DNA of 37,233 nucleotides from Thermoplasmatota archaeon (GTDB lineage Archaea > Thermoplasmatota > Thermoplasmata > UBA10834), in NCBI GenBank assembly GCA_016930135.1, contig JAFGHM010000005.1:1-37233 (forward strand), written 5' to 3'. Positions 10,136 to 37,233 of this stretch are shown here, one piece after another; position 1 is the stretch's first letter, and each line of letters starts with the position of its first letter. The position numbers and the translations under genes were made by a program. The notes under the pieces were generated by a model that did no database searches, was not told where the DNA came from, and worked only from the letters and a program-made list of their open reading frames with translations.

Positions 10136-10293
10136 ATGCTCGCACCTGCCCGTCTCCAAACCCCTGGGACAGCATATAAGGGTATTGATTGGAGGTATCC
10201 GAAAGTGGTGGGGCCTGCACCTGGCCAGCGGTTGCGGCCGAAAGAGCGCGCCCACCAAAAGGTATTAAGCAGACCTCGCTTTTCGAGGACCAG

Positions 10294-11064
10294 ATGGCCA
10301 AGAAGAGAAAGAAGACGAAGGCCGAGAAGGAAGAGTACGAGTTCCGGCCGCCGGACTTCGACGAGAAGGAGTTCCTCAAGAAGGAGATGAAGGACACCAA
10401 GACTCTCATCTGGACGGTGCTCTACGCGGTCCTGTTCGGCATCATCGCGGGCTTGTTGATGCTTGCGAGCGAGGACCTGCTCGGAGTCGCGTTCATGGTG
10501 GGGATAGCCGGCATCGTGAGCCTGAAGTACTTCTATCCGCTGATCAAGGTCGACATCACGTCCTTCCAGAAGAAGAACTGGTTGGGGAACATAGCGACCT
10601 TCTTCTTCACATTCCTGGCGATCTGGGTGTTGTTGCTCAATGTGCCGATATCGGACCACGCCAAGCCGGCCGTCGAGAACGTGATAATCTGGGTCTCTGA
10701 CGGCACAACGGCCAGAGGCATGGAGTACAAGCACATTCCGACGCAGGGTATCTACGGCTGGGTGCCCTTGAACTCCTCTGACACCCTGGAGACGATGATA
10801 AGCGTCTCTGCTGGCGCGACGATCAACATCACCGCCAAGGTGACCGACAATGGGAACCTGCAGTCGGTGGTCATCCAAGTCACCACTTCTGGAGACCCGT
10901 TGACGTCTTCCATGCTTGGAGAGGAGGAGTACAGGTTCGGTTTCCAAGTCAACAGTGGCGAGCTGAGCGCGTCCTCCGGGCTCACGTTCACGATCACCGC
11001 GACCGACAAATCGGGGAACGACTTAACCTGGCGTCCTGAACGCGCCGCCCCGGTCGCACCCTGA
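10294..11064 (+). CDS. Membrane protein with an exported beta-rich domain, function unknown
   Basis: The 256-residue protein starts with a very lysine-rich cytosolic segment (1-35). Three hydrophobic helices follow (about 36-58, 60-80, 97-118). Residues 125-256 form a soluble domain rich in Thr, Ser and beta-strand patterns, ending after TITATDKSGNDL, and resembling an immunoglobulin-like fold. I do not recognise the family. A TATA-like GGTATTAAGC (10261-10270) is 28 nt before the ATG, so the mRNA is probably leaderless. The longer track start at 10189 is rejected because it runs through the promoter. It is divergent from radA. Confidence 0.75.
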   Translation: MAKKRKKTKAEKEEYEFRPPDFDEKEFLKKEMKDTKTLIWTVLYAVLFGIIAGLLMLASEDLLGVAFMVGIAGIVSLKYFYPLIKVDITSFQKKNWLGNIATFFFTFLAIWVLLLNVPISDHAKPAVENVIIWVSDGTTARGMEYKHIPTQGIYGWVPLNSSDTLETMISVSAGATINITAKVTDNGNLQSVVIQVTTSGDPLTSSMLGEEEYRFGFQVNSGELSASSGLTFTITATDKSGNDLTWRPERAAPVAP

Positions 11065-11080
11065 GCCTCTGAAGTCCAGC

Positions 11081-12406
11081 TCATCTCTCCCAGGGCATGC
11101 GCGAGTCGAAATGGTGCGTAAGCGCCTCCAAGTGTTGCTTCTTGAGCAGATCGGAGCCGCTCACGACCTCGAACTTTCCCTGTTCCTTAACGTCCTTACC
11201 CAGAGGTATCTCCCTGAGCATCTCCCTCACCAGGTCGTCGCCCCTGAGCCACCGACGCTCCCTCATCACATACCATCGGCCGTCCTCGACGTATGGGGCT
11301 GAAACGCCTCCCGCCCTCCACTTCGCGAGGAACTCGTCCACGTTCTCCGACCTGACAGGCGGGCCTCTGTGCTTCCTCGTCTTCGGCAGAGCCATGGACG
11401 CGAGCTCGACCGTCAGGTGCGTGAGCGAATCGACATGTATCGATGTCTTCTCGGTCTCGAACTCCTCCCGCTCGAGGAGCGCCGTGACCGCGGATAGCGA
11501 CTTCCTCAGCTGAGGGTACACGACATCGTCTATGAGGTCCAGATTGGGGAAGACGATCGAGATCATGTTGTCGAGGCGTTTCCCAGCGACCTTTCTTATC
11601 TCCTCTGAGGACATCGCGCGCCTCTCGTCGGGGAAGAAGAACTTGGTGCTCGGGCGACGGAGGTACTCCCTCGAGGCCAGCACGAACCTGACGAGCGTGT
11701 CTGACGAGACGGCGGAGGCAACGTTCCTCGTTGGGTCGACCGGGTCGACGAAGGTCAACGGCTCGGGGAACTCCTTGCCCGGATGACCTGGAAGCTCCAG
11801 GGCCTCGCCGACCTTCCAATCTCTGGCCGCTTCCAGCACTTTCTTGAACGAGCCGAAGCGCATGACCAGGAGCTCGCAAAGGTATCCTGAGAAGCCCTGA
11901 ACCTTCGCCTCCGCACCGTAGCACTCGGTGCCCTTCATGAAGCGCTTGAGCAGCCTGACCTGGTCAGCCAGGCCCTTCTCTAGGTTCTTCCTGACGAACT
12001 CCGTATGGAATGGCGTTCTGTCGACCGCGCTCAACTTCTTGCGCGTGTCCCTGATCCGGAACGCGGGCACGAGGTCCACCTGGAATCCCCTGAAATCGCC
12101 CCTGACGTAGGGATGCTGGGCGTAGTGCTCCCGCCCACCTATGATCTTCCTGCCTATCTCCAGGCCTGCGTTCCTGAGTTCCTCCACGGCTGTGCTCTCT
12201 GGGAACAGCATGAAGAGGTCGATGTCCGGGCCCTTGAGATGAGTGCCCTTTGCGACGGACCCCACGAGCATCGGCTCGACATGCGCCTTGATCTTCCTGC
12301 TCGTGGAGACGACCTTCTTGGACAGCTCCTCGGCGACTGCGAGGACCTTCCGGTCCTCCGCTGCCGTCGGCTTGATCCTTGCTAGAACCTCGGCCTCGAT
12401 GGACAT
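11081..12406 (-). CDS. cca: CCA-adding enzyme (class I archaeal tRNA nucleotidyltransferase)
   Basis: The 441-residue enzyme adds or repairs the 3' CCA of tRNA. That fits both tRNA genes in this window, which do not encode CCA. The class I nucleotidyltransferase signature GS-VAKGTHLKGPDID is at 49-63, with the metal-binding Asp61 and Asp63. A further carboxylate lies in the FQVDLVPAF strand near 110. The central and tail domains follow the archaeal pattern. The start is put at the ATG at 12406 rather than the upstream GTG. A TATA-like TTTATTAGG centred near 12443 would place transcription initiation close to 12417. The gene is preceded by the candidate small RNA on the same strand. Confidence 0.93.
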   Translation of the reverse strand: MSIEAEVLARIKPTAAEDRKVLAVAEELSKKVVSTSRKIKAHVEPMLVGSVAKGTHLKGPDIDLFMLFPESTAVEELRNAGLEIGRKIIGGREHYAQHPYVRGDFRGFQVDLVPAFRIRDTRKKLSAVDRTPFHTEFVRKNLEKGLADQVRLLKRFMKGTECYGAEAKVQGFSGYLCELLVMRFGSFKKVLEAARDWKVGEALELPGHPGKEFPEPLTFVDPVDPTRNVASAVSSDTLVRFVLASREYLRRPSTKFFFPDERRAMSSEEIRKVAGKRLDNMISIVFPNLDLIDDVVYPQLRKSLSAVTALLEREEFETEKTSIHVDSLTHLTVELASMALPKTRKHRGPPVRSENVDEFLAKWRAGGVSAPYVEDGRWYVMRERRWLRGDDLVREMLREIPLGKDVKEQGKFEVVSGSDLLKKQHLEALTHHFDSRMPWER

Positions 12407-23080: not shown

Positions 23081-24304
23081 CTATGCAGCATCAGCCGCGA
23101 TGGCCACGAGCTCCATGATGTCCATCATCCGTAGCTTCGAACCTTTGGCCTCGATGGTCGCTTTCAGGCTCTGGTAGCAGAACGGGCACGAGGTCGTCAG
23201 GATGGCGGCTCCCGTCCTCTCCGCGTCCTCGACCCTCATCGACGATATCTTCTGAGCCAGGTCAGGGAACGCTGTCTTCACGCCGCCTCCCGCGCCACAG
23301 CATCTGGCATCCTCCCTGTTCCTCTCCATCTCGACCAGCTCGAGGCCAGGTATCGACTCGAGTATCCTCCTGGGCTGGTCGTAGAGTTTGTTGTGCCTTC
23401 CTAGGTGGCACGGGTCGTGGAAAGTCACTCTCCCATCGACCCTGCCATCTAACTTGAGTCTGCCAGAGTCGATGAGCTCCAGAACGTATTCGGTGATGTG
23501 GGCAATCCTCGCATCCACCTTGCCTATCTTCGGGTAGTCCTGCTTGAGGGTCTTGTAGCACCCGGCGCAGCTCGTGACTATCAGGGAAGGCGCGGCCTCC
23601 TCGAACATCGCTATGTTCTTGTTGGCGGTCTTCCTGGCTTCCTCGACCAAGCCGGTCCTGAGAAGAGTGGAGCCGCAACAGGCTTCTTCGTTCCCAAGCG
23701 TTCCGAAGTCCACCTTCGCCTTCGCCAACACCTTGGCTGTGTTGATGGCCATGTCCCTTATGTTCGGGTCATAGGCTGCGGTGCACCCGACGAAGTACAG
23801 GACCTCGCAGCTTTCCTTGAGCACGTCCTTGATCTTGACCTCCTTGTCCAGCCTCTTGGCCCACCGGGATCTCTGCACCCTCGGCTGCATCCATGGATTG
23901 CCGTAGTTCTCGACGCTCTTGATGATCGACTCGTGCGCGGGCAGAGGCGCGAGCCCGTTGGCCACCAGGAATTCCCGCATGTTCTCCCACATCGGGATGG
24001 TGTCCAAGTGCGCCGGACACACAGCCCTGCACTGCCCGCATATAGTGCACTCGTACGCGCGCGATGTGAGCTCCTTGAGCTCCTCCTCCGGGATCTCCTT
24101 CGGGCCGAGTATCTTCGCTCGGAGCCCGTATTGCCTCCTGTAAAAGTCCCGGAGCTTCAGTATCTTGCCCCTCGGGGTCACGAGTTCGACATCCTGCGCC
24201 TCCCCGCCCGTCGGACATGTGGCCGTGCACTCGCCACAGCGAGTGCACGCATCGAACTGCATCATGGCGAGGACGTCCAGCTTCGATATGTCGAGCTTCT
24301 TCAA
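23081..24304 (-). CDS. HdrD-like iron-sulfur protein (two ferredoxin clusters, two CCG domains)
   Basis: The 407-residue protein has two [4Fe-4S] motifs, Cys20/23/26/30 and Cys86/89/92/96. Two complete CCG domains follow, each with a Cys, a CCG triplet and a CxxC. In HdrD/HdrB these bind the non-cubane [4Fe-4S] clusters that reduce disulfides. Its start overlaps the stop of the membrane cytochrome-like gene by 4 nt. The pair resembles HdrDE and DsrMK/HmeCD systems, which move electrons between a membrane quinol-type carrier and a thiol/disulfide or another cytosolic acceptor. The natural substrate is not clear. No methanogenesis genes lie in the window, so heterodisulfide CoM-S-S-CoB is only one option. 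Confidence 0.88.
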   Translation of the reverse strand: MKKLDISKLDVLAMMQFDACTRCGECTATCPTGGEAQDVELVTPRGKILKLRDFYRRQYGLRAKILGPKEIPEEELKELTSRAYECTICGQCRAVCPAHLDTIPMWENMREFLVANGLAPLPAHESIIKSVENYGNPWMQPRVQRSRWAKRLDKEVKIKDVLKESCEVLYFVGCTAAYDPNIRDMAINTAKVLAKAKVDFGTLGNEEACCGSTLLRTGLVEEARKTANKNIAMFEEAAPSLIVTSCAGCYKTLKQDYPKIGKVDARIAHITEYVLELIDSGRLKLDGRVDGRVTFHDPCHLGRHNKLYDQPRRILESIPGLELVEMERNREDARCCGAGGGVKTAFPDLAQKISSMRVEDAERTGAAILTTSCPFCYQSLKATIEAKGSKLRMMDIMELVAIAADAA

Positions 24305-25215
24305 GCCGTCCTCACCTCCTTAGACATGAGCCTGTCGACCTCGATTGCTATCGGGGTGGCGATCATGTGGAAGAGCTTGCTGAATGGTATGTAGGCGATC
24401 AGGAGGGCGCTCATGATGGCGTGGACCAGCCACGCGTGGTCGTACCACTCGCCCGCGGATGCAGGCATCGCGAGCGAGAATGCGTATCCCAAGAAAGAGT
24501 ACTCCACGTTCCTCCCGTGGTCCGGGATCCCGCCAGCGATGCCCATCCCCTCAAGAATGAACCCTCCAAGGACGACCGCTAGCAGGAAGAGAATGGAGGC
24601 GGCATCGGGAAGCTCCGTCCTGACCATCTTGGGCCTCTGGATAAACCGCCTCACGGCGGCTATCAGCAGCCCCGCGAGCATCATCGCGCCCACGAGGTCG
24701 AACCCGAAGTCCCTGAGCCAGAGCTTCGCCCATCCGTCCTCGCTGATCATCGGCTCGTACTTGAGGAAGTCGAGCGAGAAAGTGACTACAAGGTCGAGGA
24801 CGAACATGACGGCGAAGCCGCCCAGGATAAGGAGGTGCATCAGCCACCTGGTGACGCTCCTGTCCTTGAGCTTGGAGAGATACATGGCGTCGCGCAAGAA
24901 CACCACGACAAGCTTCGCGAACCTCCTGCTGAAGACCAAGCGAATGCACCTGCCGAGCCAGCCGAGGACCCTCCTCTCCGGTGATCCTGAGAGCCCCTTC
25001 CCGTGGGCCCACAGGAGCACGTTGTACAGCGTGCCGATGAAGAAGACCGCAACGCACACCACGACAGTGACGAGGAACATCTCGAGATAAACCCGCTCAC
25101 GGACATACACCGTCTCGTAAGGAAGCAGAAGGATGACAGCAGATACCAGGATGACGACCGCGAAGAAGGGGAAGTACAGCCATGCCTTGTCCTTCAGGTA
25201 TCGGCCTTCTGGCAT
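24301..25215 (-). CDS. NarI/HdrE-like membrane cytochrome b subunit
   Basis: The protein has 304 residues from the ATG at 25215, with about six hydrophobic helices. Helix His residues lie in TRWLMHLLILGG and in the C-terminal WYDHAWLVHAIMSA...FSKLFH block. These match the heme-ligand pattern of nitrate reductase gamma-like subunits, as in HdrE and DsrM. It probably passes electrons between a membrane carrier and the overlapping HdrD-like protein. The start is shortened from the track because a TATA box at 25238-25249 lies 28 nt upstream of 25215, while the ATG at 25230 is too close to it. Confidence 0.83.
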   Translation of the reverse strand: MPEGRYLKDKAWLYFPFFAVVILVSAVILLLPYETVYVRERVYLEMFLVTVVVCVAVFFIGTLYNVLLWAHGKGLSGSPERRVLGWLGRCIRLVFSRRFAKLVVVFLRDAMYLSKLKDRSVTRWLMHLLILGGFAVMFVLDLVVTFSLDFLKYEPMISEDGWAKLWLRDFGFDLVGAMMLAGLLIAAVRRFIQRPKMVRTELPDAASILFLLAVVLGGFILEGMGIAGGIPDHGRNVEYSFLGYAFSLAMPASAGEWYDHAWLVHAIMSALLIAYIPFSKLFHMIATPIAIEVDRLMSKEVRTA

Positions 25216-25237
25216 CGTTGCTGGAATCATGCTGGCG

Positions 25238-25249
25238 GATATATAGTCA
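25238..25249 (-). promoter_or_regulatory. TATA box for the HdrE/HdrD-like pair
   Basis: GACTATATATCC on the minus strand is centred 28 nt before the ATG at 25215. It overlaps the last bases of the upstream BPL_N-type gene, showing that the hdr-like pair has its own promoter. Confidence 0.55.
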
Positions 25250-26317
25250 TCTGCCTCTGACAAGGGACTGGAAATGGTCGTCGACGCACGCTCTCGCGGT
25301 CTCGACGAGCAGCTGCGTCGTCTCGTCCGCCTCTGACTCGATGCCGACATTCATAGCGATCACAGCCTCTCTCACCCGCCAAAGAGCGGTGGCGATCTCC
25401 TCGGCAAGATCATCGCTCAAGGTCCATGTCCTCGCCTCTATCGCCCTCACGAGTTCGAGGTACCTGCCGGCATCCCAGAGCTTCTTGCCGACGATGAAAG
25501 ACCTGTTCTCGAGGCCGACTATCGCCACCTTGAGGTCCGCTATAGCGGACTCTAGCGACTGGGTATCGCGCACGCCCTCTGACCTCGGGAGAGCGGAGGG
25601 TCTGAGCCCCAATAACTTAAGGAACTGCGTGTTGGCCTCCGGGTATTTTGGGTGTTCCAGGTGGGGTCCTAATAGCAGAAGTTCGCCCTTTCCAAACCGA
25701 GATCTTATCGCGGCGGGCCTCCCTGGAAGCACATAGTCGACCAAACGCCTGCTCATCTGCACTTCCGTGTTCTCCGTGAGGCCCCTGTACCTCAGGAGCA
25801 CATGGTCCTCTGCGGGCTCCTTGAAGATCGGGCCACCATAAAGAGGTGCGAGGAGTGTGCACCCGTCCGCATCCAGGACCAGCTCGCCCCTTATCGGATG
25901 CACGATCGAGCACGAGCCGTATCTGACCGCGATCCGGGAAGGCACATTCGGAGGATCCTGACCATGGAATCCTATGTTCTCAATCCGCGTGCTGGATAGG
26001 TTGAACTCTAAGAATGGGTCGATAGTGGATGGCAGAGGGAGATATGCTCCTGCGCAGATGCCCACGTATCTTCCGCCGAAGGAGATGAACTCCCGCAGCC
26101 TTTCGAAGCCTTTGCCCCTCAGCTCGTCCGCGATGGCGAATCCGTCTCCGCCTGAGATGATGACCATCGAGGCTTGGTCTCCTAAGTGGAGAACGAACTC
26201 GGACGAGTCCAGGAACCTGACTCTGAAGATGCCCTTCGACTCGAACAGGTCTGCGAGCCAAGTCCATGAGTGCGAGGAGCCCCTCCCTGCATAGACGACT
26301 ATATCCCTAGATGTCAT
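25247..26317 (-). CDS. BPL_N-type class I glutamine-amidotransferase-like protein
   Basis: The 356-residue protein has an N-terminal domain (about 1-225) similar to the biotin-protein-ligase N-terminal (BPL_N) family. It shows VVYAGRGSSH at the start, a MVIISGGDGF strand-turn and the nucleophile elbow GICAGAYL with Cys88. A helical C-terminal region (about 250-356) is extra and has no assigned function. BPL_N domains resemble glutaminase domains, but the reaction is unknown. A TATA-like TTTATTGCC (26347-26355) lies about 34 nt before the ATG at 26317, which supports this start over the earlier one on the track. Confidence 0.75.
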   Translation of the reverse strand: MTSRDIVVYAGRGSSHSWTWLADLFESKGIFRVRFLDSSEFVLHLGDQASMVIISGGDGFAIADELRGKGFERLREFISFGGRYVGICAGAYLPLPSTIDPFLEFNLSSTRIENIGFHGQDPPNVPSRIAVRYGSCSIVHPIRGELVLDADGCTLLAPLYGGPIFKEPAEDHVLLRYRGLTENTEVQMSRRLVDYVLPGRPAAIRSRFGKGELLLLGPHLEHPKYPEANTQFLKLLGLRPSALPRSEGVRDTQSLESAIADLKVAIVGLENRSFIVGKKLWDAGRYLELVRAIEARTWTLSDDLAEEIATALWRVREAVIAMNVGIESEADETTQLLVETARACVDDHFQSLVRGR

Positions 26318-28608: not shown

Positions 28609-28962
28609 ATGCCCAGGCCAAAGAGATGCAGGAACGTCGCATTCGACCCGGCCCACAGGTTCTTCAAGCCACAGGGAGTGCCGATGAGCGATCTGGACTG
28701 CCTCGACCTCGGCCTGGATGAACTTGAGGCCCTAAGAATCGCGGATTTGCTGGGGATCTCTCAGACAGAGGGTGCGCACATGATGAACGTGTCTCAGCCC
28801 ACCTTCAACCGTATACTCAGCTCGGCCAGGTCCAAGGTTGCTGATAGCCTGGTCAACGCGCATGCGCTCCGCATCGAGTCCACCCAAGGGCACGTGGCGG
28901 TATCGAACGGGCGGGACGCGGCTAGAGGCGGCAGACGGAGCTGCAGGAGGTCCGGCACATGA
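28609..28962 (+). CDS. UPF0251/DUF134 family DNA-binding regulator
   Basis: The 117-residue protein begins MPRPKRCRNV, the family signature. It contains a sigma-like helix-turn-helix (LDELEALRIADLLGISQTEGAHMMNVSQPTFNRIL, about 36-71). The basic tail is short, and the NifX-type domain that is fused to this module in some bacteria is absent. In other genomes UPF0251 genes sit beside NifX-like and Mrp/MinD genes, and exactly those genes follow here. It probably regulates the downstream metal-sulfur block and perhaps itself. Its stop overlaps the next start by 4 nt. Confidence 0.88.
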   Translation: MPRPKRCRNVAFDPAHRFFKPQGVPMSDLDCLDLGLDELEALRIADLLGISQTEGAHMMNVSQPTFNRILSSARSKVADSLVNAHALRIESTQGHVAVSNGRDAARGGRRSCRRSGT

Positions 28963-29594
28963 GGGCAGCCACGATGGTCGTGCGCATACCTGGCAACTGG
29001 ATCGGCGACCTTGCGACCTCCTGCGACCTCTCCATCCGGGTGATCAAGTGCGTCCCCCGTGAGGGCTCCGGTGGGCAGAGCCTGGTCCAGATAGACACGG
29101 TCGACGGGACGACCGGCACGGACCTGGTGGAGAAGATACGCTCGGCCGAGCCCAAGTGCCGCGTGCAGCTCACATCGGCCGGACCGGGCAGGTTCATAGG
29201 CACTGTCGAGACGAACACATGCGTCGTCTGCAGGCTCGTGGCCGAATCGGGCTGTTTCCTTGACTCCGCAATGTCCATCGGCGACGGGACCATCATGTGG
29301 AACATCCTCGCGCCCAACGCTGCTGCACTGAGGCTGCTACACGACAAGGTGACGAAACTCGGCTGCTCTGTCGACCTGAAGAAGGTCTCGCTCCTCAGAA
29401 CCTCTTCGGAACTCACCAGGGCCCAGGAGAGAGTCCTGCAGATTGCTTACGAACTGGGCTACTTCGACATACCGAAGAAGATCGACCTCGCGAAGCTGGC
29501 GAAGAGATTGGAGATATCGAAGGCCACGCTCGACATCATGTTGAGGAGGGCCCAGAGGAAGGTCATCGCGAACCATGTCGGAGGGCTCCCGTAG
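28959..29594 (+). CDS. HTH_10-type transcription regulator with a Cys cluster
   Basis: The 211-residue protein ends in an HTH_10 (bacterio-opsin-activator-type) domain (about 151-205, ending DIMLRRAQRKVI). The N-terminal region (1-145) contains a CVVC pair plus another Cys (residues 88, 91, 99), which could bind a metal or iron-sulfur cluster or sense redox state. It overlaps the UPF0251 gene in the form ATGA. The two are therefore translated together, giving a two-regulator module at the head of the block. The sensor role is an inference from the cysteines. Confidence 0.82.
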   Translation: MRAATMVVRIPGNWIGDLATSCDLSIRVIKCVPREGSGGQSLVQIDTVDGTTGTDLVEKIRSAEPKCRVQLTSAGPGRFIGTVETNTCVVCRLVAESGCFLDSAMSIGDGTIMWNILAPNAAALRLLHDKVTKLGCSVDLKKVSLLRTSSELTRAQERVLQIAYELGYFDIPKKIDLAKLAKRLEISKATLDIMLRRAQRKVIANHVGGLP

Positions 29595-29661
29595 GCTCCT
29601 GCGAGGCTGGGCTAACCGGTTCGCCATGCAAGGCTTATACGGAACCCCATCTGGGTGAAGC

Positions 29662-30645
29662 ATGGCAGACGCCGCGAAGGCTCTGGGGTCAGAACGGAAG
29701 CTCGCCTGTGCCGAGGACATAGCCTTCGGGCCGATCGTCTCGAGACGCCTCGGGCAATCCTTGGGTGTCAACACCGTGCCGTGCAAGACCTGCGCATATT
29801 CTTGTGTCTACTGCCAGCTCGGGCCGACGCCCGACAGGACCGTCGTCAGGAAGGCCTATATCGATTCTGAATCCGTGGCGAGGGCGGTGGGGCGCACTCT
29901 CGGAAGGACGCGCACTCGCCCCGACTTCGTCACATTTCTCGGCTGCGGCGAGCCGACCCTAGCTGCCAATCTCGGGCAGTGCCTCGAAGCGGTCAAGAAG
30001 ATCTGGCCGGGCAGGACCGCGTTGCTGACAAGCGGCGCGCTGTTCTCCAGGCCGGAAGTCATGGACGAGGCGATGGGCTTCGACGTCGTCATGCCCACAG
30101 TCGCAGCCGGGAATGAGCGACTTTTCAAGAGGGTGCACCATCCGCACCCGAAGGTCGTCTTCGACGAGGTTGTCAGGGGGCTCAGGATGTTCTCTGAGCG
30201 GTTCGAGGGCAGGTTCCTGCCGGAGGTGATGCTCGTAGGGGGCATGAACGACACTGAGGCAAGTCTGCAGGAGATCGGCAGGACCCTGGATAGCATGCGG
30301 GTTGACGGTGTCCACTTGACCGCGCCCGTGCGAGCACCGACACAGAGCTGGGTGAGGCCACCAGCCGAGCACGCAGTTGCCCGCGCACTGAGCATACTCC
30401 CGAGAGCGGTCGACTTCACGAGACCTGAGGGGATGGCCGTGACCGAGATAGTCAGCATCCGTGTCGAAGAGCTCCTTGGCATCGCATCGATGCACCCTCT
30501 CACTGAGGGACAGGTGGTTTCGGCGCTCACAGATGCAGGTGCCTCCGAGAGAGAGGCGCTCGCGCTGCTGAACGGACTGGTGGAATCATCCAAGATGGTG
30601 AGGACGGGATACCGAGGCAAGAGCTTCTACAGGACAAGGAAGTGA
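29662..30645 (+). CDS. Radical SAM protein
   Basis: The 327-residue protein has the CxxxCxxC cluster motif (Cys44, Cys48, Cys51 in CAYSCVYC) preceded by FGPIVSRRLGQSLGVN, a pattern shared with a COG0731-like group. The partial TIM barrel shows FLGCGEPTL, the usual SAM-binding GxGEPT strand. A C-terminal helical region (about 255-327) resembles a small winged helix. The reaction is unknown. A TATA-like CTTATACG centred near 29636 is 26 nt before the ATG, predicting a leaderless start for this and possibly the next gene. Confidence 0.87.
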   Translation: MADAAKALGSERKLACAEDIAFGPIVSRRLGQSLGVNTVPCKTCAYSCVYCQLGPTPDRTVVRKAYIDSESVARAVGRTLGRTRTRPDFVTFLGCGEPTLAANLGQCLEAVKKIWPGRTALLTSGALFSRPEVMDEAMGFDVVMPTVAAGNERLFKRVHHPHPKVVFDEVVRGLRMFSERFEGRFLPEVMLVGGMNDTEASLQEIGRTLDSMRVDGVHLTAPVRAPTQSWVRPPAEHAVARALSILPRAVDFTRPEGMAVTEIVSIRVEELLGIASMHPLTEGQVVSALTDAGASEREALALLNGLVESSKMVRTGYRGKSFYRTRK

Positions 30646-30650
30646 ATCAC

Positions 30651-31244
30651 ATGGCTATTGAATGCGCCCGATGCAAGGCGAAGGACTGCTACGAAGGCAA
30701 GGACTGCTTCGGACTGGCTGGTGCGGCTATGAAGGGCTACACTGATCGGGAGCTGCGGTCGATGGCCGTCTCGGGTGACATCGAGGCGGACCATTACATG
30801 AAGCTCACCAGACTGGAGGAGATCATGCTGTACGCGAAGCGGATGGGCATGAACAAGCTCGGCATTGCCTTCTGCGTGGGCCTCTCGCGTGAGGCTGAGA
30901 CGATAGACCGAATACTGACGAAGCACGGGTTCGAGGTCCACAGCGCCTGCTGCAAGATATGCGGCATGGACAAGGCCAAGCTGGGCGTCAAGAAGCTGCA
31001 TGGAGGCTCTGGCATAGAGGCTGTCTGCAATCCGGTCGGGCAGGCTCTTAGGCTCCAACAGTGCGGGACCGAGATGAACATAGTGGTGGGGCTGTGCATA
31101 GGCCATGACATGATATTCACAAAGCACTCGCACGCGCCGGTGACCGTGCTGGTCGTGAAGGACCGGGTGCTTGCCCACAACCCGATCGGTGCGGTCTACA
31201 GCGACTACTACCTCGAGACGAAGTTCGGCCTGACGCAGGGATGA
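30651..31244 (+). CDS. DUF1847 cysteine-rich protein
   Basis: The 197-residue protein begins MAIECARCKAKDCYEGKDC, a CxxC-rich metal-binding opening typical of DUF1847. Later cysteine groups (SACCKICGMDK, AVCNPVGQA, QQCGTE) and the stretch GLCIGHDMIFTKHSHAPVTVLVVKDRVLAHNP are also characteristic. The function of the family is unknown; the cysteines suggest an iron-sulfur or zinc site. The ATG at 30651 lies 5 nt after the radical SAM stop, so the two genes are co-transcribed. Confidence 0.85.
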   Translation: MAIECARCKAKDCYEGKDCFGLAGAAMKGYTDRELRSMAVSGDIEADHYMKLTRLEEIMLYAKRMGMNKLGIAFCVGLSREAETIDRILTKHGFEVHSACCKICGMDKAKLGVKKLHGGSGIEAVCNPVGQALRLQQCGTEMNIVVGLCIGHDMIFTKHSHAPVTVLVVKDRVLAHNPIGAVYSDYYLETKFGLTQG

Positions 31245-31357
31245 CCTCCTGGCTGGACTTCACACCTGATCGGACGAACACAGCCTGTCCCGCGGCTAAC
31301 CTGTTTGCCGTCATTGGCTTAGCCTCTGGGGGATAAGTCCACCGTTGAGGCGTGAAG

Positions 31358-31744
31358 ATGGCCAGGAAGACAGACTACACGAAGAAGTCGTTCATAGTGA
31401 TCGGAACGCACGGAGCGGACCACCCAGAGAAGGCTACCATGACCTTCGCATGTGCCGGCGCCGCTCAGGCGATCGGCATCAAGACCAAGGTGTTCCTCGC
31501 GGGCGACGCGGTCGAGTTGGCGAGGAAGGGCTTCGCGAAGAAGCTGCCCAAGATCGAGGGCATGGCCCCCGTGGACGAGCTGATGGAGGGGTTCATCAGG
31601 GGAGGAGGGAAGGTCCAGGTGTGCATCCCATGCATGGAGTCGAGGCACATCTCGAAGAAGAACTACCTCGAAGACGTGGAGTTCATCAACCTGATGGACT
31701 TCGCAGCCGGGACCGTGGACGCCGACAGGGTCTTCACCTGCTAG
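31358..31744 (+). CDS. DsrE-like sulfur-relay family protein
   Basis: The 128-residue protein has the DsrE/DsrF-like fold pattern: an N-terminal strand (FIVIGTHG), helical TMTFACAGAAQAIG, a second strand KVFLAGDAVEL and a late CIPCMESR. The CxxC near 90-93 takes the place of the catalytic Cys of persulfide-carrying relatives. DsrE-type proteins accept or pass sulfane sulfur. It sits 14 nt before the Mrp ATPase gene, so sulfur delivery to cluster assembly is a fair inference. The ATG at 31358, after GAGGCG, is preferred over the GTG at 31352. Confidence 0.8.
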   Translation: MARKTDYTKKSFIVIGTHGADHPEKATMTFACAGAAQAIGIKTKVFLAGDAVELARKGFAKKLPKIEGMAPVDELMEGFIRGGGKVQVCIPCMESRHISKKNYLEDVEFINLMDFAAGTVDADRVFTC

Positions 31745-31758
31745 AGGAGGATGTCTCG

Positions 31759-32613
31759 ATGGCAACAGAAAGCCAAAACGTGCAAAAGAACATACCCTCC
31801 GCACCGAAGGCAGGACCGTCTTCGGTCGTCAAGGAGAACCTCGCGAAGGTCAAGCACAAGCTCGTCGTCATGAGCGGCAAGGGAGGTGTGGGCAAATCGA
31901 CGGTGGCCGTGAACCTCGCATTCGACCTGGCCCGGAGAGGGCTGAAGGTCGGCCTGCTTGACGCGGACATGCACGGGCCGAGCGTACCCAAGTTGCTGGG
32001 CATACCCAACCTGCCTTTGACCGTTGGCGAGAACGGCAAGATCGTGCCCATGTTGGTGCCTCCCGGCATCAAGGTCATCTCGATCGCGTTCCTCCTGATG
32101 AACAGGGACGCACCGGTGATCTGGAGGGGACCGATCAAGATGGGTGCCATCAAGCAATTCCTGGAGGAAGTCGAGTGGGGAGAGCTGGACTACCTGGTCG
32201 TGGACCTTCCACCGGGAACCGGGGACGAGCCTCTCAGTATCGCTCAGCTCCTGCCCGCGCCGGACGGAGCGGTAATCGTCACGACGCCTCAGGACGTCGC
32301 GCTGTTGAGCGTGAGAAAGTCGATCAACTTCGCAAAGACCGTCGGCCTGAGGGTGATAGGCCTCGTGGAGAACATGAGCGGGCTGGAATGCCCCCACTGC
32401 GGCAAGCAGATCGATGTCTTTGGGAACGGGATGGCCGAGAAGGCGGCACAGGACCTCTCAGTGCCTTTCCTGGGCAAGCTGCCCCTGAGCCTCGGTGTCT
32501 CCAGGAGCGGGGACGACGGGAAACCCTTCGTGCTCGCCAGTGAGGACGGTGTCTCGAAGAAGTTCGAGGAGATCGCGAACAAGATCGTCAGCTCGGTCGA
32601 GAAGAGGAAGTGA
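31759..32613 (+). CDS. Mrp/NBP35-type P-loop ATPase, iron-sulfur cluster carrier
   Basis: The 284-residue protein has the deviant Walker A SGKGGVGKST (39-48), DADMHGPS near 69-75, VVDLPPGTGDEP near 148-157 and the C-terminal CPHC pair (Cys211, Cys214) that binds a bridging [4Fe-4S] cluster in dimeric homologues. The family carries and transfers iron-sulfur clusters. A GAGGAGG lies about 8 nt before the ATG. The ORF track joins this to an upstream run of bases that is an out-of-frame shadow of the DsrE gene. In bacterial ORP loci an Mrp ATPase occurs beside NifX-like and MinD genes, as here. Confidence 0.92.
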   Translation: MATESQNVQKNIPSAPKAGPSSVVKENLAKVKHKLVVMSGKGGVGKSTVAVNLAFDLARRGLKVGLLDADMHGPSVPKLLGIPNLPLTVGENGKIVPMLVPPGIKVISIAFLLMNRDAPVIWRGPIKMGAIKQFLEEVEWGELDYLVVDLPPGTGDEPLSIAQLLPAPDGAVIVTTPQDVALLSVRKSINFAKTVGLRVIGLVENMSGLECPHCGKQIDVFGNGMAEKAAQDLSVPFLGKLPLSLGVSRSGDDGKPFVLASEDGVSKKFEEIANKIVSSVEKRK

Positions 32614-32644
32614 CGACCGGCAGGGGATTATGGAGGCGCATGAC

Positions 32645-32866
32645 ATGTCAGGTAACAGGGTTTTCAAATGCTACGCGTGCGGCAACGAATGGGAGGAGCC
32701 CTACGGCACTGGAAGACCTCTCGCGTGCCCCAAGTGCAGAAGCCCCAACATACACAGGACCGACGCCGACCGTGGCAAGAGAACGGCCGGAGGTGGCTTC
32801 GGAGCGGGCAGGGCTGCGTACGACCAGGGCAGAGGACGGGACATGTCCGGCCGTGGGCAAAGATGA
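32645..32866 (+). CDS. Zinc-ribbon protein with a Gly/Arg-rich tail
   Basis: The 73-residue protein has a zinc ribbon (CYACG and CPKC, about 9-31), then a tail rich in Gly, Arg and Asp (about 45-73). The start at 32645 is favoured by GGAGG about 8 nt upstream over the ATG at 32630. Its place between the Mrp and NifX genes suggests a partner in cluster assembly. The RG-rich tail is similar in style to that of the NifX-like protein two genes later. Confidence 0.72.
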   Translation: MSGNRVFKCYACGNEWEEPYGTGRPLACPKCRSPNIHRTDADRGKRTAGGGFGAGRAAYDQGRGRDMSGRGQR

Positions 32867-32876
32867 GGTGATGTAG

Positions 32877-33032
32877 ATGGAAGGAGAACTCGAGTTTGGT
32901 TCGAGCATATGCTACTGCCCGAAGTGCGAGAAGGAGTTCCCGCACAAGCACCGTGGCGTACCGTGCTCCGAGACGAAGTGCCCGAAATGTGGGTCGCCAA
33001 TGATAGGCAGGAAGTGCAGGGAGGAGAGCTGA
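32877..33032 (+). CDS. 51-residue double CxxC zinc-ribbon protein
   Basis: This ORF is too short for the track. It starts MEGELEFG and has CYCPKC and CPKC knuckles separated by a basic, His-containing loop ([10 protein letters not shown]) with an extra Cys. A Shine-Dalgarno GAGGTGAT is about 4-10 nt upstream. Its stop overlaps the NifX-like start (TGATG). It has the look of a rubredoxin-type or ribbon metal site; whether it binds zinc or iron is unknown. Confidence 0.68.
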
Positions 33033-33451
33033 TGAACGGCAAGAGGATATGTCTGACATCGACCGGGCCGAGACTGAGCGATCCGGCGGATCCGAGGTTC
33101 GGAAGGTGCGCGTATTTCATATTCGTGGACGAGGCGACGGGAGCGACGGAGGCCGCCCCCAACGACGCCAGGCTCCTGGGGAACGGTGCGGGCATCCAGG
33201 CGGCCCAAGACATCGTCACGAAAGGAGCGGGAGTCGTCATCACAGGCGACATGGGCCCGAACGCCTTCAGGGTGCTCAGCGCTGCCGGCGTGCGCGTGTT
33301 CGTGGGAGTCAATGGCTCCTGCGAGGCTGCGCTCGACGGCTATCGAAAGGGGCTGATGAAAGAGATTGGGTCGCCGACCGCCCCTGGACACCACGGCGGA
33401 AGAGGAGCCGGAAGGGGGCAGGGGATGGGCCGCGGAGGCGGATGGTTGTAG
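33032..33451 (+). CDS. NifX/dinitrogenase-cofactor family protein, first copy
   Basis: The 139-residue protein matches the NifX/MTH1175-like fold, with RFGRCAYFIFVD near 22-33 and GAGVVITGDMGPNAFRVLSAAGVRVFVGV near 65-93. In bacterial 'orange protein' homologues this fold holds a Mo-Cu-sulfide cluster; other relatives carry nitrogenase cofactor precursors. A C-terminal tail (about 117-139) is rich in Gly, Arg and two adjacent His. Cys26 and Cys97 are candidate ligands. A second NifX-like gene lies about 1 kb downstream. Confidence 0.85.
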   Translation: MNGKRICLTSTGPRLSDPADPRFGRCAYFIFVDEATGATEAAPNDARLLGNGAGIQAAQDIVTKGAGVVITGDMGPNAFRVLSAAGVRVFVGVNGSCEAALDGYRKGLMKEIGSPTAPGHHGGRGAGRGQGMGRGGGWL

Positions 33452-33453
33452 TG

Positions 33454-33936
33454 ATGACCGACGGCGTGAGCGACCGCAGGGATCTGACGAAGGAGCTGGA
33501 CCTCCTGGCGGAGAACGTCATCAGGATGCTCGAGGAGAACGACGCGAAGATATACTCGAGGGAGGTTATCGAGGAGTTCCGGAACCCATCCAACATAGGG
33601 CGCATGCAGGATGCGGACGGCGAAGGCGTCGGTGACGGCATCTGTGGGGACAGCATGGAGATCTATCTGAAGATCAAGGATGGCGTAATCGAGAGGTGCA
33701 CGTTCTTCACAGACGGCTGCGGCGCAACGATCGCCTGCGGGAGCAGGCTGACCAGGTTCGTCAAGGGGATGTCGGTTGAGGGAGCGAAGGCCGTGAAGCC
33801 TGCCAGCCTCATCCACCTGCTGAACGGCCTCCCGGAAGAGCATGTCCACTGCGCCTCGCTTGCCGTGGTAGCACTGAAGGGCGCCATAAGGAACTACGAG
33901 TCCAGGCAGAGGGCCAAGGAGGGCGCAAGAGCATGA
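33454..33936 (+). CDS. NifU/IscU-like iron-sulfur scaffold protein
   Basis: The 160-residue protein has the three scaffold cysteines in order: Cys64 (ICGDSMEI, followed by the conserved Asp66), Cys89 (TDGCGATIACGS) and Cys133 (HCASLAVVALKGAI). A short N-terminal extension precedes the fold. IscU/NifU scaffolds build clusters from iron and sulfide. No dedicated cysteine desulfurase (NifS/IscS) gene is in the window, so sulfur may come from the DsrE-like protein or another source. The start could be ATG 33442, GTG 33451 or ATG 33454; spacing from GGAGG is not decisive. Confidence 0.85.
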   Translation: MTDGVSDRRDLTKELDLLAENVIRMLEENDAKIYSREVIEEFRNPSNIGRMQDADGEGVGDGICGDSMEIYLKIKDGVIERCTFFTDGCGATIACGSRLTRFVKGMSVEGAKAVKPASLIHLLNGLPEEHVHCASLAVVALKGAIRNYESRQRAKEGARA

Positions 33937-34091
33937 GGTTCTTGAGATTCCGGTGCAGGAACTGCGGCCTGCAGATGGCTCTCAACGAGCCGCCTGAGAA
34001 GTGCTTCTCATGTGGCTCCACGGACATAGTCAGAGAAGGCTGGAGGCAGCGGTTCTCACAGTCGAAGGATGATCGGAAGAAGAGGAGTTGA
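33933..34091 (+). CDS. 52-residue rubredoxin-like zinc ribbon
   Basis: This ORF is too short for the track. It starts MRFLRFRCRNCG and has a second knuckle, CFSCG, with a short spacer, a single-ribbon metal site of the rubredoxin type. A basic tail follows (KDDRKKRS). The ATG overlaps the stop of the NifU-like gene in the form ATGA, so translation is coupled. It is one of three small ribbons in this block. Confidence 0.7.
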   Translation: MRFLRFRCRNCGLQMALNEPPEKCFSCGSTDIVREGWRQRFSQSKDDRKKRS

Positions 34092-34095
34092 TTGA

Positions 34096-34455
34096 TTGAA
34101 AGTATGCATACCAACCAACGGCCGCGGAGGGCTCGAGGATATCGTCTGCGAACACTTCGGGAGAGCGCCGACTTTCACGGTAGTCGATATGGACACGAAC
34201 TCCGTAGTCGTCGTGCCGAATGCCAGCGAGCACATGGGGGGCATGGGCAAGCCCCCCGAGCACATAATCAGTACTGGCTCCGAGGTGCTCGTGTGCTCAG
34301 AGCTGGGGCCGAGAGCGATCGGGATGTTCGAGTCCTACGGGGTCGAGGTCTTCGTGGGAGCTCGGGGAACGGTCAGGGAAGCCGTGGAGCTGTGGAGACA
34401 GGGCAAGCTAGAGAGGGCTTCGGACGTGAACGCGTGCCGGGAGCACCGGCACTGA
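34096..34455 (+). CDS. NifX/dinitrogenase-cofactor family protein, second copy
   Basis: The 119-residue protein starts at TTG with MKVCIPTNGRGG and has the family core EHFGRAPTFTVVD, then MGGMGKPPEHIISTGSEVLVCSELGPRAIGMF. A short tail ends CREHRH. It diverges from the first copy, which has a longer Gly/Arg-rich tail. Two copies in one operon suggest different metal or partner roles. It lies 4 nt after the rubredoxin-like stop. Confidence 0.85.
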   Translation: MKVCIPTNGRGGLEDIVCEHFGRAPTFTVVDMDTNSVVVVPNASEHMGGMGKPPEHIISTGSEVLVCSELGPRAIGMFESYGVEVFVGARGTVREAVELWRQGKLERASDVNACREHRH

Positions 34456-34525
34456 CGCGGACGGATGGCGCCGGCGGACGGCGTGGTCTGAGCGTGAATT
34501 CAGTCTATGAACAGGGTGAGCACGG

Positions 34526-35362
34526 TTGAGAATAAGCGTAGCGAGCGGCAAGGGCGGCACTGGCAAGACCCTTGTGGCGACCAACCTGGCCGCCGTCACT
34601 CAGTCATCGCTGCTGGTGGACCTCGATGTCGAGGAGCCGAACTGCTACATCTTCGTGGAGGGCGAGCAGAGGAGCGAGCAGGTCTTCCGGCCCGTGCCTG
34701 TGATTGACGAGGAGAAGTGCACGAGGTGCGGCACATGTGCGGAGGTGTGCGAGTATCATGCGATCGTCGCTCTCCCTAAGACGATAATGACCTTCGAGGA
34801 GCTCTGCCACGGGTGCGGGGCGTGCAGCATGTTCTGCCCCGAGGGCGCTATCACGGAGAAAGGCAGGGCCATGGGGGAAATCATATCCGTCCAGGCGAAC
34901 GGCTGCCAGAAGCTGCTCTATGGCAGGATGAGGATAGGGGAGCCAGCGCCCGTGCCTCTCATACGCCAGGTCAAGAAGAGGATACCGAAGGACATCCTGG
35001 CCATCGTCGACTGCCCTCCCGGAACCGCTTGTCCTGCGGTCGAGAGCATGCGCGGGACCGACTTCTGCGTGCTGGTGACCGAGCCAACACCGTTCGGCTT
35101 CCACGACCTGAAGCTCGCACTCGAGGTGGTCAGGAAGCTCAGGATACCGCACGCGGTCTTCGTCAACAAGCACGGCCTACCCGGCCCGGACATCCATGAG
35201 TATTGCAGAAGCAAGGGCATACCAGTCGTAGGGCAACTGCGGCATGACATGCAGATTGCCAGAAACTACTCAGAGGGACGGATGATCGTGACCGACCCGG
35301 CGCACAGGAAGACCTTCGAAGGGCTCCTGAAGCGAGTGCTGGAGGAGGCTTCCAGGCGATGA
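34526..35362 (+). CDS. MinD-family ATPase with an inserted 2[4Fe-4S] ferredoxin, first copy
   Basis: The 278-residue protein begins with the deviant Walker A SGKGGTGKT (7-15). A ferredoxin insert (about 60-110) has Cys65/68/71/75 and Cys94/97/100/104. The ATPase fold then resumes (AIVDCPPGTACPA, VTEPTPFGFHDL). This is the COG1149 type seen as a tandem pair in bacterial ORP loci. The start is TTG after a weak GGGTGAG. It overlaps the second copy by 4 nt. The family probably couples ATP use to an iron-sulfur or redox step. Confidence 0.9.
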   Translation: MRISVASGKGGTGKTLVATNLAAVTQSSLLVDLDVEEPNCYIFVEGEQRSEQVFRPVPVIDEEKCTRCGTCAEVCEYHAIVALPKTIMTFEELCHGCGACSMFCPEGAITEKGRAMGEIISVQANGCQKLLYGRMRIGEPAPVPLIRQVKKRIPKDILAIVDCPPGTACPAVESMRGTDFCVLVTEPTPFGFHDLKLALEVVRKLRIPHAVFVNKHGLPGPDIHEYCRSKGIPVVGQLRHDMQIARNYSEGRMIVTDPAHRKTFEGLLKRVLEEASRR

Positions 35363-36282
35363 AAGAGATAGTGGTCCTGAGCGGAAAGGGCGGCACGGGG
35401 AAGACGATGCTCGTGGCCAACTACGCCGCCCTGGCCAAAGAAGCGATTCTTGCGGACTGCGATGTCGACGCACCCAATCTGCACCTGCTGATGGCACCCG
35501 AGGTCAAGGAATCGGGGCCCTTTCCCAGCATGAAAGCTGCATCTATCGATGGAGCCAAATGCGTCAACTGCGGTGAGTGCGTCCCTCTCTGCCGGTTCGA
35601 GGCGATCAAGTGGATAGGCAATTCGAGCCTCAGGAAGGTCGCGATCTCGGTCGACGAGTGCGAAGGGTGTGGCGTCTGCGCCCGAGCCTGTCCTGAGGGG
35701 GCGATCTCGATGGTCGAGCGCAAAGGCGGGGACTGGTTCATCTCCTCGACAAGGTACGGGACCATGGTGCACGCGCTGCTCGAACCAGGAGGGGAGAACT
35801 CAGGAAAGCTGGTTGCTCTGGTCAAGCAGAAGGCGAGGATGCTAGCAAGGAACACTGGTGCGAAGCTGGTCATCGTCGACGGACCTCCAGGGATCGGATG
35901 CGCCGCAATATCGGCCCTCTCGGGAGCGAACCTGGTGTTACTTGTGACCGAGCCCACGAAGTCCGGGGCTAGCGATTTCACGAGAGCCCTTAACCTGGCG
36001 GAGTCCTTCAGGTGCAAGACCTGCTACGTCATCAACAGGGCCGACATCAACGCACGCATGGCGGAGGAGATAGACAGGACAGCAGCAGACAAGGGGGTGC
36101 AATGCGCGGGTAAGATACCTTACGACGATGAGGTGGTCGCATCGATGGCCTTGGGCAAGACAGTCGTCGAATCCGGTAAAGGAGAGGCCAGGAAGAGCAT
36201 AGTGGATTCGTGGAACGCGCTCATGGACATCGTCAGCACTGGCGACGATACGGCAGCCTCGGAGGGCCCCCATGACAGGTGA
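35359..36282 (+). CDS. MinD-family ATPase with an inserted 2[4Fe-4S] ferredoxin, second copy
   Basis: The 307-residue protein starts MKEIVVLSGKGGTGKT. The ferredoxin insert has Cys68/71/74/78 and Cys101/104/107/111, and a longer middle region carries a basic stretch. Later ATPase motifs are VIVDGPPGIGCAA and VTEPTKSGASDF. It is a paralogue of the overlapping upstream gene; the pair probably forms a heterodimer. Its end overlaps the metallo-hydrolase start by 11 nt. Confidence 0.9.
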   Translation: MKEIVVLSGKGGTGKTMLVANYAALAKEAILADCDVDAPNLHLLMAPEVKESGPFPSMKAASIDGAKCVNCGECVPLCRFEAIKWIGNSSLRKVAISVDECEGCGVCARACPEGAISMVERKGGDWFISSTRYGTMVHALLEPGGENSGKLVALVKQKARMLARNTGAKLVIVDGPPGIGCAAISALSGANLVLLVTEPTKSGASDFTRALNLAESFRCKTCYVINRADINARMAEEIDRTAADKGVQCAGKIPYDDEVVASMALGKTVVESGKGEARKSIVDSWNALMDIVSTGDDTAASEGPHDR

Positions 36283-36952
36283 GAGAGCAAGGGTGTCGAT
36301 CGTGTACGACTCCGTCGCGGTCCAGGGGTTCGAGACGGGATGGGGGTTCTCGGCGCTCATACACACATCTGACAGCATGGTCTTGTTCGACTGTGGCTGG
36401 GACGGACACGTTCTGATCAGGAACCTTGCGCGCCTTGGCGTGCACGCAGCGGCGATAGACAAGGTCGTGCTGTCCCACATGCACTGGGACCACATATCTG
36501 GTCTGACGGAGCTGCTGTCTCAGACGACCCCCGCAAAGCCGATCGAGGTCTACCTCCCTGAAGCGTTCTCGCAGAATCTCAAGAGGGAGATCGTGAGGCA
36601 CGCGATCGTCACAGAGGTCGAAGGGCCTTACGAGATCGCCACCGGTGTAATCAGCACGGGAGCACTCGGATCCGATATCAAGGAGCAGTCCCTGGTTGTC
36701 CGCTCCGGCGAGAAGGCTGCGGTGCTAACAGGCTGCGCTCACCCGGGATTGAGGGCAATAATGGCAAGGGCTTCCGAGATCGCCAAGCCGACCGCGCTCA
36801 TCGGAGGATTCCATGGAGCGCGCGCGGACGATGTGCCGAAGGACCTGGAACTCCTGGTCCCATGCCACTGCACCCAGGCAAAGACGGAGCTGCTGAAGGC
36901 ATTCGGAGATAGGGCCTCGGAGGGATTGGCCGGGGCCAGCTATACTCTATGA
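36272..36952 (+). CDS. Metallo-beta-lactamase-fold protein at the end of the NifX/MinD block
   Basis: The 226-residue protein has SHMHWDH (68-74), a LTGCAHPG segment and a late GGFHGA; these supply metal ligands of the fold. It resembles the group annotated as dihydropterin/RFAP-synthase-like metallo-hydrolases, which are common beside redox and cluster genes. The ATG overlaps the second MinD gene and follows GGAGGG by about 7 nt. The exact reaction is unknown. Confidence 0.82.
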   Translation: MTGERARVSIVYDSVAVQGFETGWGFSALIHTSDSMVLFDCGWDGHVLIRNLARLGVHAAAIDKVVLSHMHWDHISGLTELLSQTTPAKPIEVYLPEAFSQNLKREIVRHAIVTEVEGPYEIATGVISTGALGSDIKEQSLVVRSGEKAAVLTGCAHPGLRAIMARASEIAKPTALIGGFHGARADDVPKDLELLVPCHCTQAKTELLKAFGDRASEGLAGASYTL

Positions 36953-36992: not shown

Positions 36993-37233
36993 TCAGAGCT
37001 TCTTGTGGCAGAACCACCAGTCGTAGCACTCGTAGCTCTTCAGCCTCTCCTTGGCTGTCTTCTCGTCACTTGCAGGCGGTATTATGACCCTGTCCTTCAG
37101 GATGGCGTTGTTGGGCCAGTTCGCGGGCACAGCGACCTTGTTGTTGTCAGCTGTCTGCAGGGCCTTCACAGCCCTGAGCACCTCGTCGATGTTCCTTCCG
37201 ATCTCCTGCGGGTAGTAGAGTATCAGCCTGAAG
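36993..37233 (-). CDS. Peroxiredoxin, C-terminal part (5' end outside the window)
   Basis: About 79 codons are visible on the minus strand. The sequence [22 protein letters not shown], then VAVPANWP, and the terminal [12 protein letters not shown] are typical of archaeal Prx6-type thiol peroxidases with extra C-terminal cysteines. The catalytic peroxidatic Cys is not in view. Members reduce peroxides using thiol donors. It is convergent with the metallo-hydrolase, with only 40 nt between stops. Confidence 0.9.

Follow-up and report, generated by a model that had tools for sequence, protein, structure and literature searches.

What does a block of fifteen archaeal genes that resembles an enlarged orange protein (ORP) system of bacterial anaerobes do, and which metal does it handle? 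The block occupies positions 28609-36952, on the + strand, of contig JAFGHM010000005.1 from a Thermoplasmatota archaeon; the window analyzed here is this one whole contig (C57, 37,233 bases), which belongs to a 1.83-Mb draft genome (G000) that is 85% complete. An initial annotation had proposed that the block is a fuller, archaeal version of the ORP system and that it may assemble an unusual metal-sulfide cluster. The likeness to ORP loci was borne out, but the gene neighbourhood points to iron and not to an exotic Mo/Cu cluster. We give an even chance to the block being an iron-sulfide island of ORP/IssA type that is specific to anaerobes and would assemble, hold and deliver iron sulfide.

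How close is the block to the known systems? The D. vulgaris ORP complex (Orp3, Orp4, Orp5, Orp8 and MrpORP) shares with it two MinD-ferredoxin ATPases, an ORP-type NifX, an Mrp carrier and a restriction to anaerobes. Indeed, g13 (34526-35362) and g14 (35359-36282; genes are numbered g1 to g15 along the block) are adjacent MinD-like ATPases of the Orp3/Orp4 type (CbiA + Fer4), each with an inserted ferredoxin bearing two [4Fe-4S] motifs, and together with the Mrp/NBP35 P-loop Fe-S carrier g6 (31759-32613; PF10609, NUBPL/Mrp, 4e-97; CPHC motif) they match Orp3/Orp4/Orp9. In D. vulgaris, MrpORP, in which Mrp is fused to NifX, binds Fe-S clusters and transfers them to Orp3-Orp4-Orp8 in vitro (PMC6345978). 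In contrast, the block Mrp is unfused, with NifX encoded by a separate gene, and it matches the MrpORP model at positions 2-254 only, below the cut-off. Moreover, the D. vulgaris genes form sigma-54-controlled divergent operons, whereas the block lies on a single strand with DUF134 and HTH_10 regulators, and it adds two NifX classes, its own NifU, DsrE, DUF1847, a radical SAM protein and a metallo-beta-lactamase-fold (MBL) hydrolase. As for Orp5, a small [2Fe-2S] protein, the block holds three small Cys proteins, none of them identified as Orp5 (no Orp5 sequence was compared). With neither the fusion nor the sigma-54 arrangement, the block is not a strict ORP complex. Nor is it the first such locus in archaea: the A. 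fulgidus genes AF2378-AF2380, an ORP-like NifX with CbiA-type ATPases, are noted as highly expressed and linked to the D. vulgaris ORP in PMC3949148, where the passage on them describes only a core and does not discuss NifU, DsrE or DUF1847. What stands of the fuller archaeal version is an unfused, enlarged ORP-type core that brings a NifU-type scaffold and a DsrE protein of its own.

The two NifX proteins had been taken for copies of one gene. Our tree of 113 NifX domains from across phyla, which does not include P. furiosus IssA, separates NifX1 (g9, 33032-33451; PF02579, 1.7e-18) from NifX2 (g12, 34096-34455; PF02579, 3.9e-20) with 99/96 support, and the split itself runs across phyla. The best match of NifX1 in the PDB is the D. 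gigas orange protein 2WFB (3.6e-21), its closest solved relative, and NifX1 groups on the side of D. gigas ORP and of MTH1175, the latter described as an IssA-type protein (PMC5524996); it falls closer to the ORP group than to MTH1175, with weak support. IssA of P. furiosus, of the IssX clade, stores thioferrate, and its cationic tail has been proposed as the binder (PMC5524996). The block resembles it in a NifX domain with a Gly-rich cationic tail and in an iron/sulfide context. Such tails occur in 17 of 51 NifX1 and in none of 50 NifX2 proteins. The Gly/Arg-rich tail of the window NifX1, which ends in GHHGGRGAGRGQGMGRGGGWL, measures some 34 aa against 70 aa in IssA, and the protein differs further from IssA in being encoded within a multi-gene assembly island. 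NifX2 instead conserves H20, H46, C67, C114, H117 and H119 (45-52 of 52 rows), plausibly a ligand set. The CxHF motif, suggested by the MrpORP paper as a possible NifX2 signature, was present in only 3 of 51 proteins and was dropped. NifX1 and NifX2 are ancient and distinct paralogues rather than copies, long-standing partners that probably differ in chemistry. The genome encodes a third NifX-domain protein, close to an aldehyde ferredoxin oxidoreductase (PF02730/PF01314) at L143 (contig C87), 2136-2525 and 3081-4883, a possible tungsten link.

The block also appears to supply a specialised extra scaffold. Each family genome has one strongly scoring NifU outside the block, near a class-V aminotransferase (desulfurase-type) gene. 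In the set of 40 genomes, the low-scoring block type (g10, 33454-33936; PF01592, 3.3e-29) occurs within the family only in block-bearing genomes, and also in the core-bearing relatives G019 and G021. The block NifU is 44% identical to the other NifU of its genome, those others being 65-86% identical between genera. Like ordinary NifU/IscU proteins it keeps the IscU-type Cys/Cys/His-Cys ligands (C64, C89 and H132 in 21/21 sequences, C133 in 20/21); unlike them, it is a second, diverged copy placed within an island. SufBD was found in none of the family members searched.

The MinD-ferredoxin pair gives an indication of lifestyle. It is present in 48 of the 220 genomes of the class, adjacent on one contig in 41, and in G063 and G103 (L115, L130) the two genes form one open frame of 614-623 codons, which suggests that both ATPases always act together. 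None of the 48 pair-bearing genomes encodes a haem-copper oxidase (COX1), against 87 of the 172 genomes devoid of the pair; the corresponding p = 7e-13 overstates independence, as the genomes are clustered by family (16 versus 6 families, no overlap). The direction is clear: the pair belongs to an anaerobe's system.

Is the block a genuine unit? The initial annotation had let its proposal depend on conservation of the gene order in related genomes. Five other family genomes (G008, G010, G013, G016 and G017) keep 12-13 of the genes in an identical order, namely DUF134, HTH_10, DUF1847, DsrE, Mrp, small Cys proteins, NifX1, NifU, zinc ribbon, NifX2 and the two MinD-ferredoxins, and the congener G004 has a 12-gene block devoid of DUF1847. 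In G008 the first zinc ribbon (g7) was not detected at the block. The surroundings differ, the blocks lying at several unrelated places in the chromosomes: the open reading frames (ORFs) flanking the window block include none in common with G004, G008, G010, G016 or G017 and two, upstream, in common with G013; G008, G010, G016 and G017 have a common downstream flank, and the flank of G004 is shared with none. Conservation of the order between such different flanks puts the arrangement well beyond chance adjacency. Furthermore, G011 holds a relict (L020, contig C1, ~10,700-11,470) in which DUF134 fragments, with a broken frame, and HTH_10 are followed by DUF1847 joined directly to the end of MinD-2, so that the middle of the block was lost through one deletion. 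Taken with its absence from most congeners, these observations indicate that the block is passed on, relocated and deleted as a whole and that the organisms can do without it. Contamination during binning is argued against by the NifX1 and NifX2 gene trees, where the window sits with its family, closest to the congener.

We extended the survey by scanning species genomes with DUF1847 and searching the class with MinD-1. A reduced core, DUF134-Mrp-NifX1-NifX2-MinD1-MinD2, to which NifU, DUF1847, MBL and radical SAM genes are often added in varying order, is found in other Thermoplasmata, Hadesarchaea (L029), Methanosarcinales (L032, L062), Methanocellales (L065, L080), and Methanohalophilus and Methanococcoides (L039, L063); parts of it occur in Chloroflexota and WOR-3 (L040, L055). 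The blocks of the five family genomes contain neither the radical SAM nor the MBL gene, yet both are genuine members, since their homologues adjoin the core in the wider archaeal version. DUF1847 is optional (9 of the 48 pair-bearing class genomes); with MBL and radical SAM it also travels independently of the core. A pyridine nucleotide-disulfide oxidoreductase in or beside the block at L026, L029, L040, L110 and L118 could be a sulfur or disulfide reductase.

Which metal, then, would such an island handle? We clustered and then identified the recurrent unassigned neighbours at 67 core loci, with 48 DUF1847 loci devoid of the core for comparison. They include a DtxR-type iron repressor (with a FeoA fusion in the family), at 18/67 core loci versus 0/48, FeoB, at 7/67 versus 0/48, and DUF5320, at 21/67 versus 0/48, a small protein rich in Gly, Arg and aromatic residues whose composition resembles the IssA tail. 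The recurrence of these three at core loci, together with the position of NifX1 on the IssA-type (MTH1175) side, favours iron sulfide over Mo/Cu, which makes it the better guess; the metal is probably an ordinary one. Several points weigh against it. The rows with iron-gene adjacency are related and come down to some 4-5 independent lineages, while the control loci were unmatched; the genome of the window has DtxR-FeoA and FeoB away from the block, on a different contig; the NifX1 tail is short (34 aa), and those of several relatives are slight. Moreover, D. gigas ORP, the closest solved relative of NifX1, was reported with a Mo-Cu sulfide cluster (mentioned in PMC6345978), which would fit an island where NifX1 is the site for building a sulfide cluster of Mo and Cu or of another metal mixture. 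We find this quite unlikely, as iron genes (DtxR, FeoB) recur beside the core and none for molybdate or copper appears among the recurrent neighbour families listed, and as two related proteins of the family, MrpORP and IssA, are Fe-S binders. A contig end elsewhere in the genome (L147, contig C93, 154-1235) carries another DUF134 gene with two DUF5320-type genes after it, probably a further, cut-off NifX-type locus.

From these genomic steps we infer all the biochemical ones of the iron-sulfide island. The block NifU would assemble Fe-S units from iron and from sulfur brought by the DsrE-like protein. NifX1, of the orange-protein/IssA lineage, would use both its domain and the cationic Gly/Arg tail to hold an anionic iron-sulfide, and NifX2 might receive or pass on a discrete cluster through its conserved His/Cys ligands. 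Mrp and the MinD-ferredoxin pair would load and transfer clusters at the expense of ATP and electrons, DUF134 and the Cys-rich HTH_10 protein could sense cluster or redox state, and DUF1847, radical SAM and MBL would form an attached submodule. A broader and tentative idea, to which we give clearly less than even chances, is that of a self-contained anaerobic iron-sulfide economy. In it the second scaffold would load a bulk store kept by NifX1 with its Gly/Arg tail, or in trans by DUF5320 proteins, and clusters would be drawn from this store by NifX2 and the MinD-ferredoxin pair, as an anaerobic equivalent of ferritin together with its unloading machinery.

The island could instead be devoted to maturing a single enzyme, such as one of the tungsten or carbon monoxide dehydrogenase (CODH) type, or deliver F430 to methyl-coenzyme M reductase. 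A patchy distribution and a dedicated scaffold would suit one sole client, network data have led to the proposal that a NifX protein shuttles F430 (PMC12622379), and the third NifX of this genome adjoins an aldehyde ferredoxin oxidoreductase. We still hold a dedicated maturase to be unlikely: CODH/prismane and NiFe-hydrogenase families occur in family genomes with and without the block and thus fail, as candidate clients, to separate the two, and no catalytic-subunit gene was recognised as recurring next to it. D. vulgaris also suggests a complex for cell positioning or division, in which the Fe-S ATPases would serve division or polarity instead of supplying clusters. The ORP proteins there have a putative link to division and MrpORP has a polar location (PMC6345978), the ATPases are MinD-like, and in some relatives a gene that looks FtsZ-like by eye lies beyond FeoB. 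Such a role leaves NifU, DsrE, Mrp, the two NifX and the metal-gene neighbours unexplained, and a block that most congeners lack probably has a niche function that can be dispensed with; we consider such a role improbable. Finally, the Pfam names NifX and NifU might recall an ordinary nitrogenase accessory cluster. This deserves practically no weight: as initially stated, there are no nitrogenase genes, PF00148 being absent from the 85% complete draft, and the radical SAM protein of the block is not NifB (nifB was not sought genome-wide).

The storage and distribution of iron and sulfide in anaerobes are still poorly understood, and work on the orange-protein system has centred on Desulfovibrio. 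The island unites a scaffold, a sulfur carrier, two NifX classes and an ATPase pair and, in relatives, an iron regulator and a transporter as well. New here are the ancient NifX paralogues, the second NifU confined to the block in a family devoid of SufBD, and, across 220 genomes, the lack of any haem-copper oxidase where the MinD pair occurs. Since cultured Methanohalophilus and Methanococcoides carry the core, they offer a way to test a function that the bacterial locus did not reveal. DUF1847 and DUF5320, almost absent from the literature searched, gain a genomic context.

The remaining genes deserve a few words. DUF1847 itself (g4, 30642-31244; PF08901, 1e-53) has at least nine near-invariant Cys (80 rows), and its AlphaFold2 model is alpha/beta (pLDDT 88.6). 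No PDB match fell below 1e-3, and the best, the aspartate racemase C-domain and Dph2 at ~3e-3, were not usable. Outside the core its most frequent neighbours are MBL and radical SAM. In G013 (L019, ~10,075) an in-frame TAG replaces a conserved Gln in an otherwise intact block, probably through decay or error, a recoded codon being a further alternative; at L036 a TAA sits only upstream of the likely start. We found no paper naming DUF1847, and a search by six COG, UPF and Pfam identifiers gave none combining two or more of them.

The block starts with the DUF134/UPF0251 helix-turn-helix regulator g1 (28609-28962; PF02001, 8.4e-20) and the HTH_10 regulator g2 (28959-29594; PF04967, 3.8e-19), whose Cys-rich N-terminal domain, with C31, C88xxC91 and C99 present in 13/13 homologues, makes it a candidate Fe-S or redox sensor. 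The radical SAM protein g3 (29662-30645; PF04055, 3e-10) has a CxxxCxxC motif and did not match the NifB model. The DsrE/DsrF-like g5 (31358-31744; PF02635, 4.4e-15), a candidate sulfur carrier, has C32, C89xxC92 and C128 in 7/7 homologues and a weak match to YchN (PDB 1jx7). The last gene, g15 (36272-36952; PF00753, Lactamase_B, 2e-11), encodes the MBL hydrolase. Pfam and NCBIfam confirmed the families named initially (DUF134/UPF0251, HTH_10, Radical_SAM, DUF1847, DsrE, NUBPL/Mrp, two Nitro_FeMo-Co, NifU_N, two CbiA + Fer4 and Lactamase_B). The three supposed zinc ribbons are all two-CxxC zinc-ribbon/rubredoxin-like proteins by sequence: g7 (32645-32866), with a Gly/Arg-rich tail and Zn_ribbon_8 below the cut-off, g8 (32877-33032), with two CxxC knuckles and kept in relatives, and g11 (33933-34091; PF21349, RUBY_RBDX, 1.2e-6), the only one to pass the Pfam cut-off.

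The ORF calls confirmed fifteen genes on one strand, with starts slightly adjusted relative to the naive ORFs for Mrp (31759), NifX1 (33032) and NifU (33454). The many 4-nt overlaps mentioned initially amount to exactly four junctions (g1/g2, g3/g4, g10/g11 and g13/g14), the others showing 1- or 11-nt overlaps or spacings of 2-113 nt. As the widest gaps, 67 nt after 29594, 113 nt after 31244 and 70 nt after 34455, may hold internal promoters, more than one transcript is possible. The contig stops 281 nt past g15, and the downstream view reaches only a convergent 1-Cys peroxiredoxin gene (36993-37232, - strand), cut by the contig end. Elsewhere in the window, also on the - strand, 23081-25350 holds two genes, like a CCG-domain iron-sulfur protein (HdrD/GlpC type) and a nitrate-reductase-gamma-like membrane protein, and a long RadA-like recombinase frame (8672-10258) shows, by eye, an intein-like insert.

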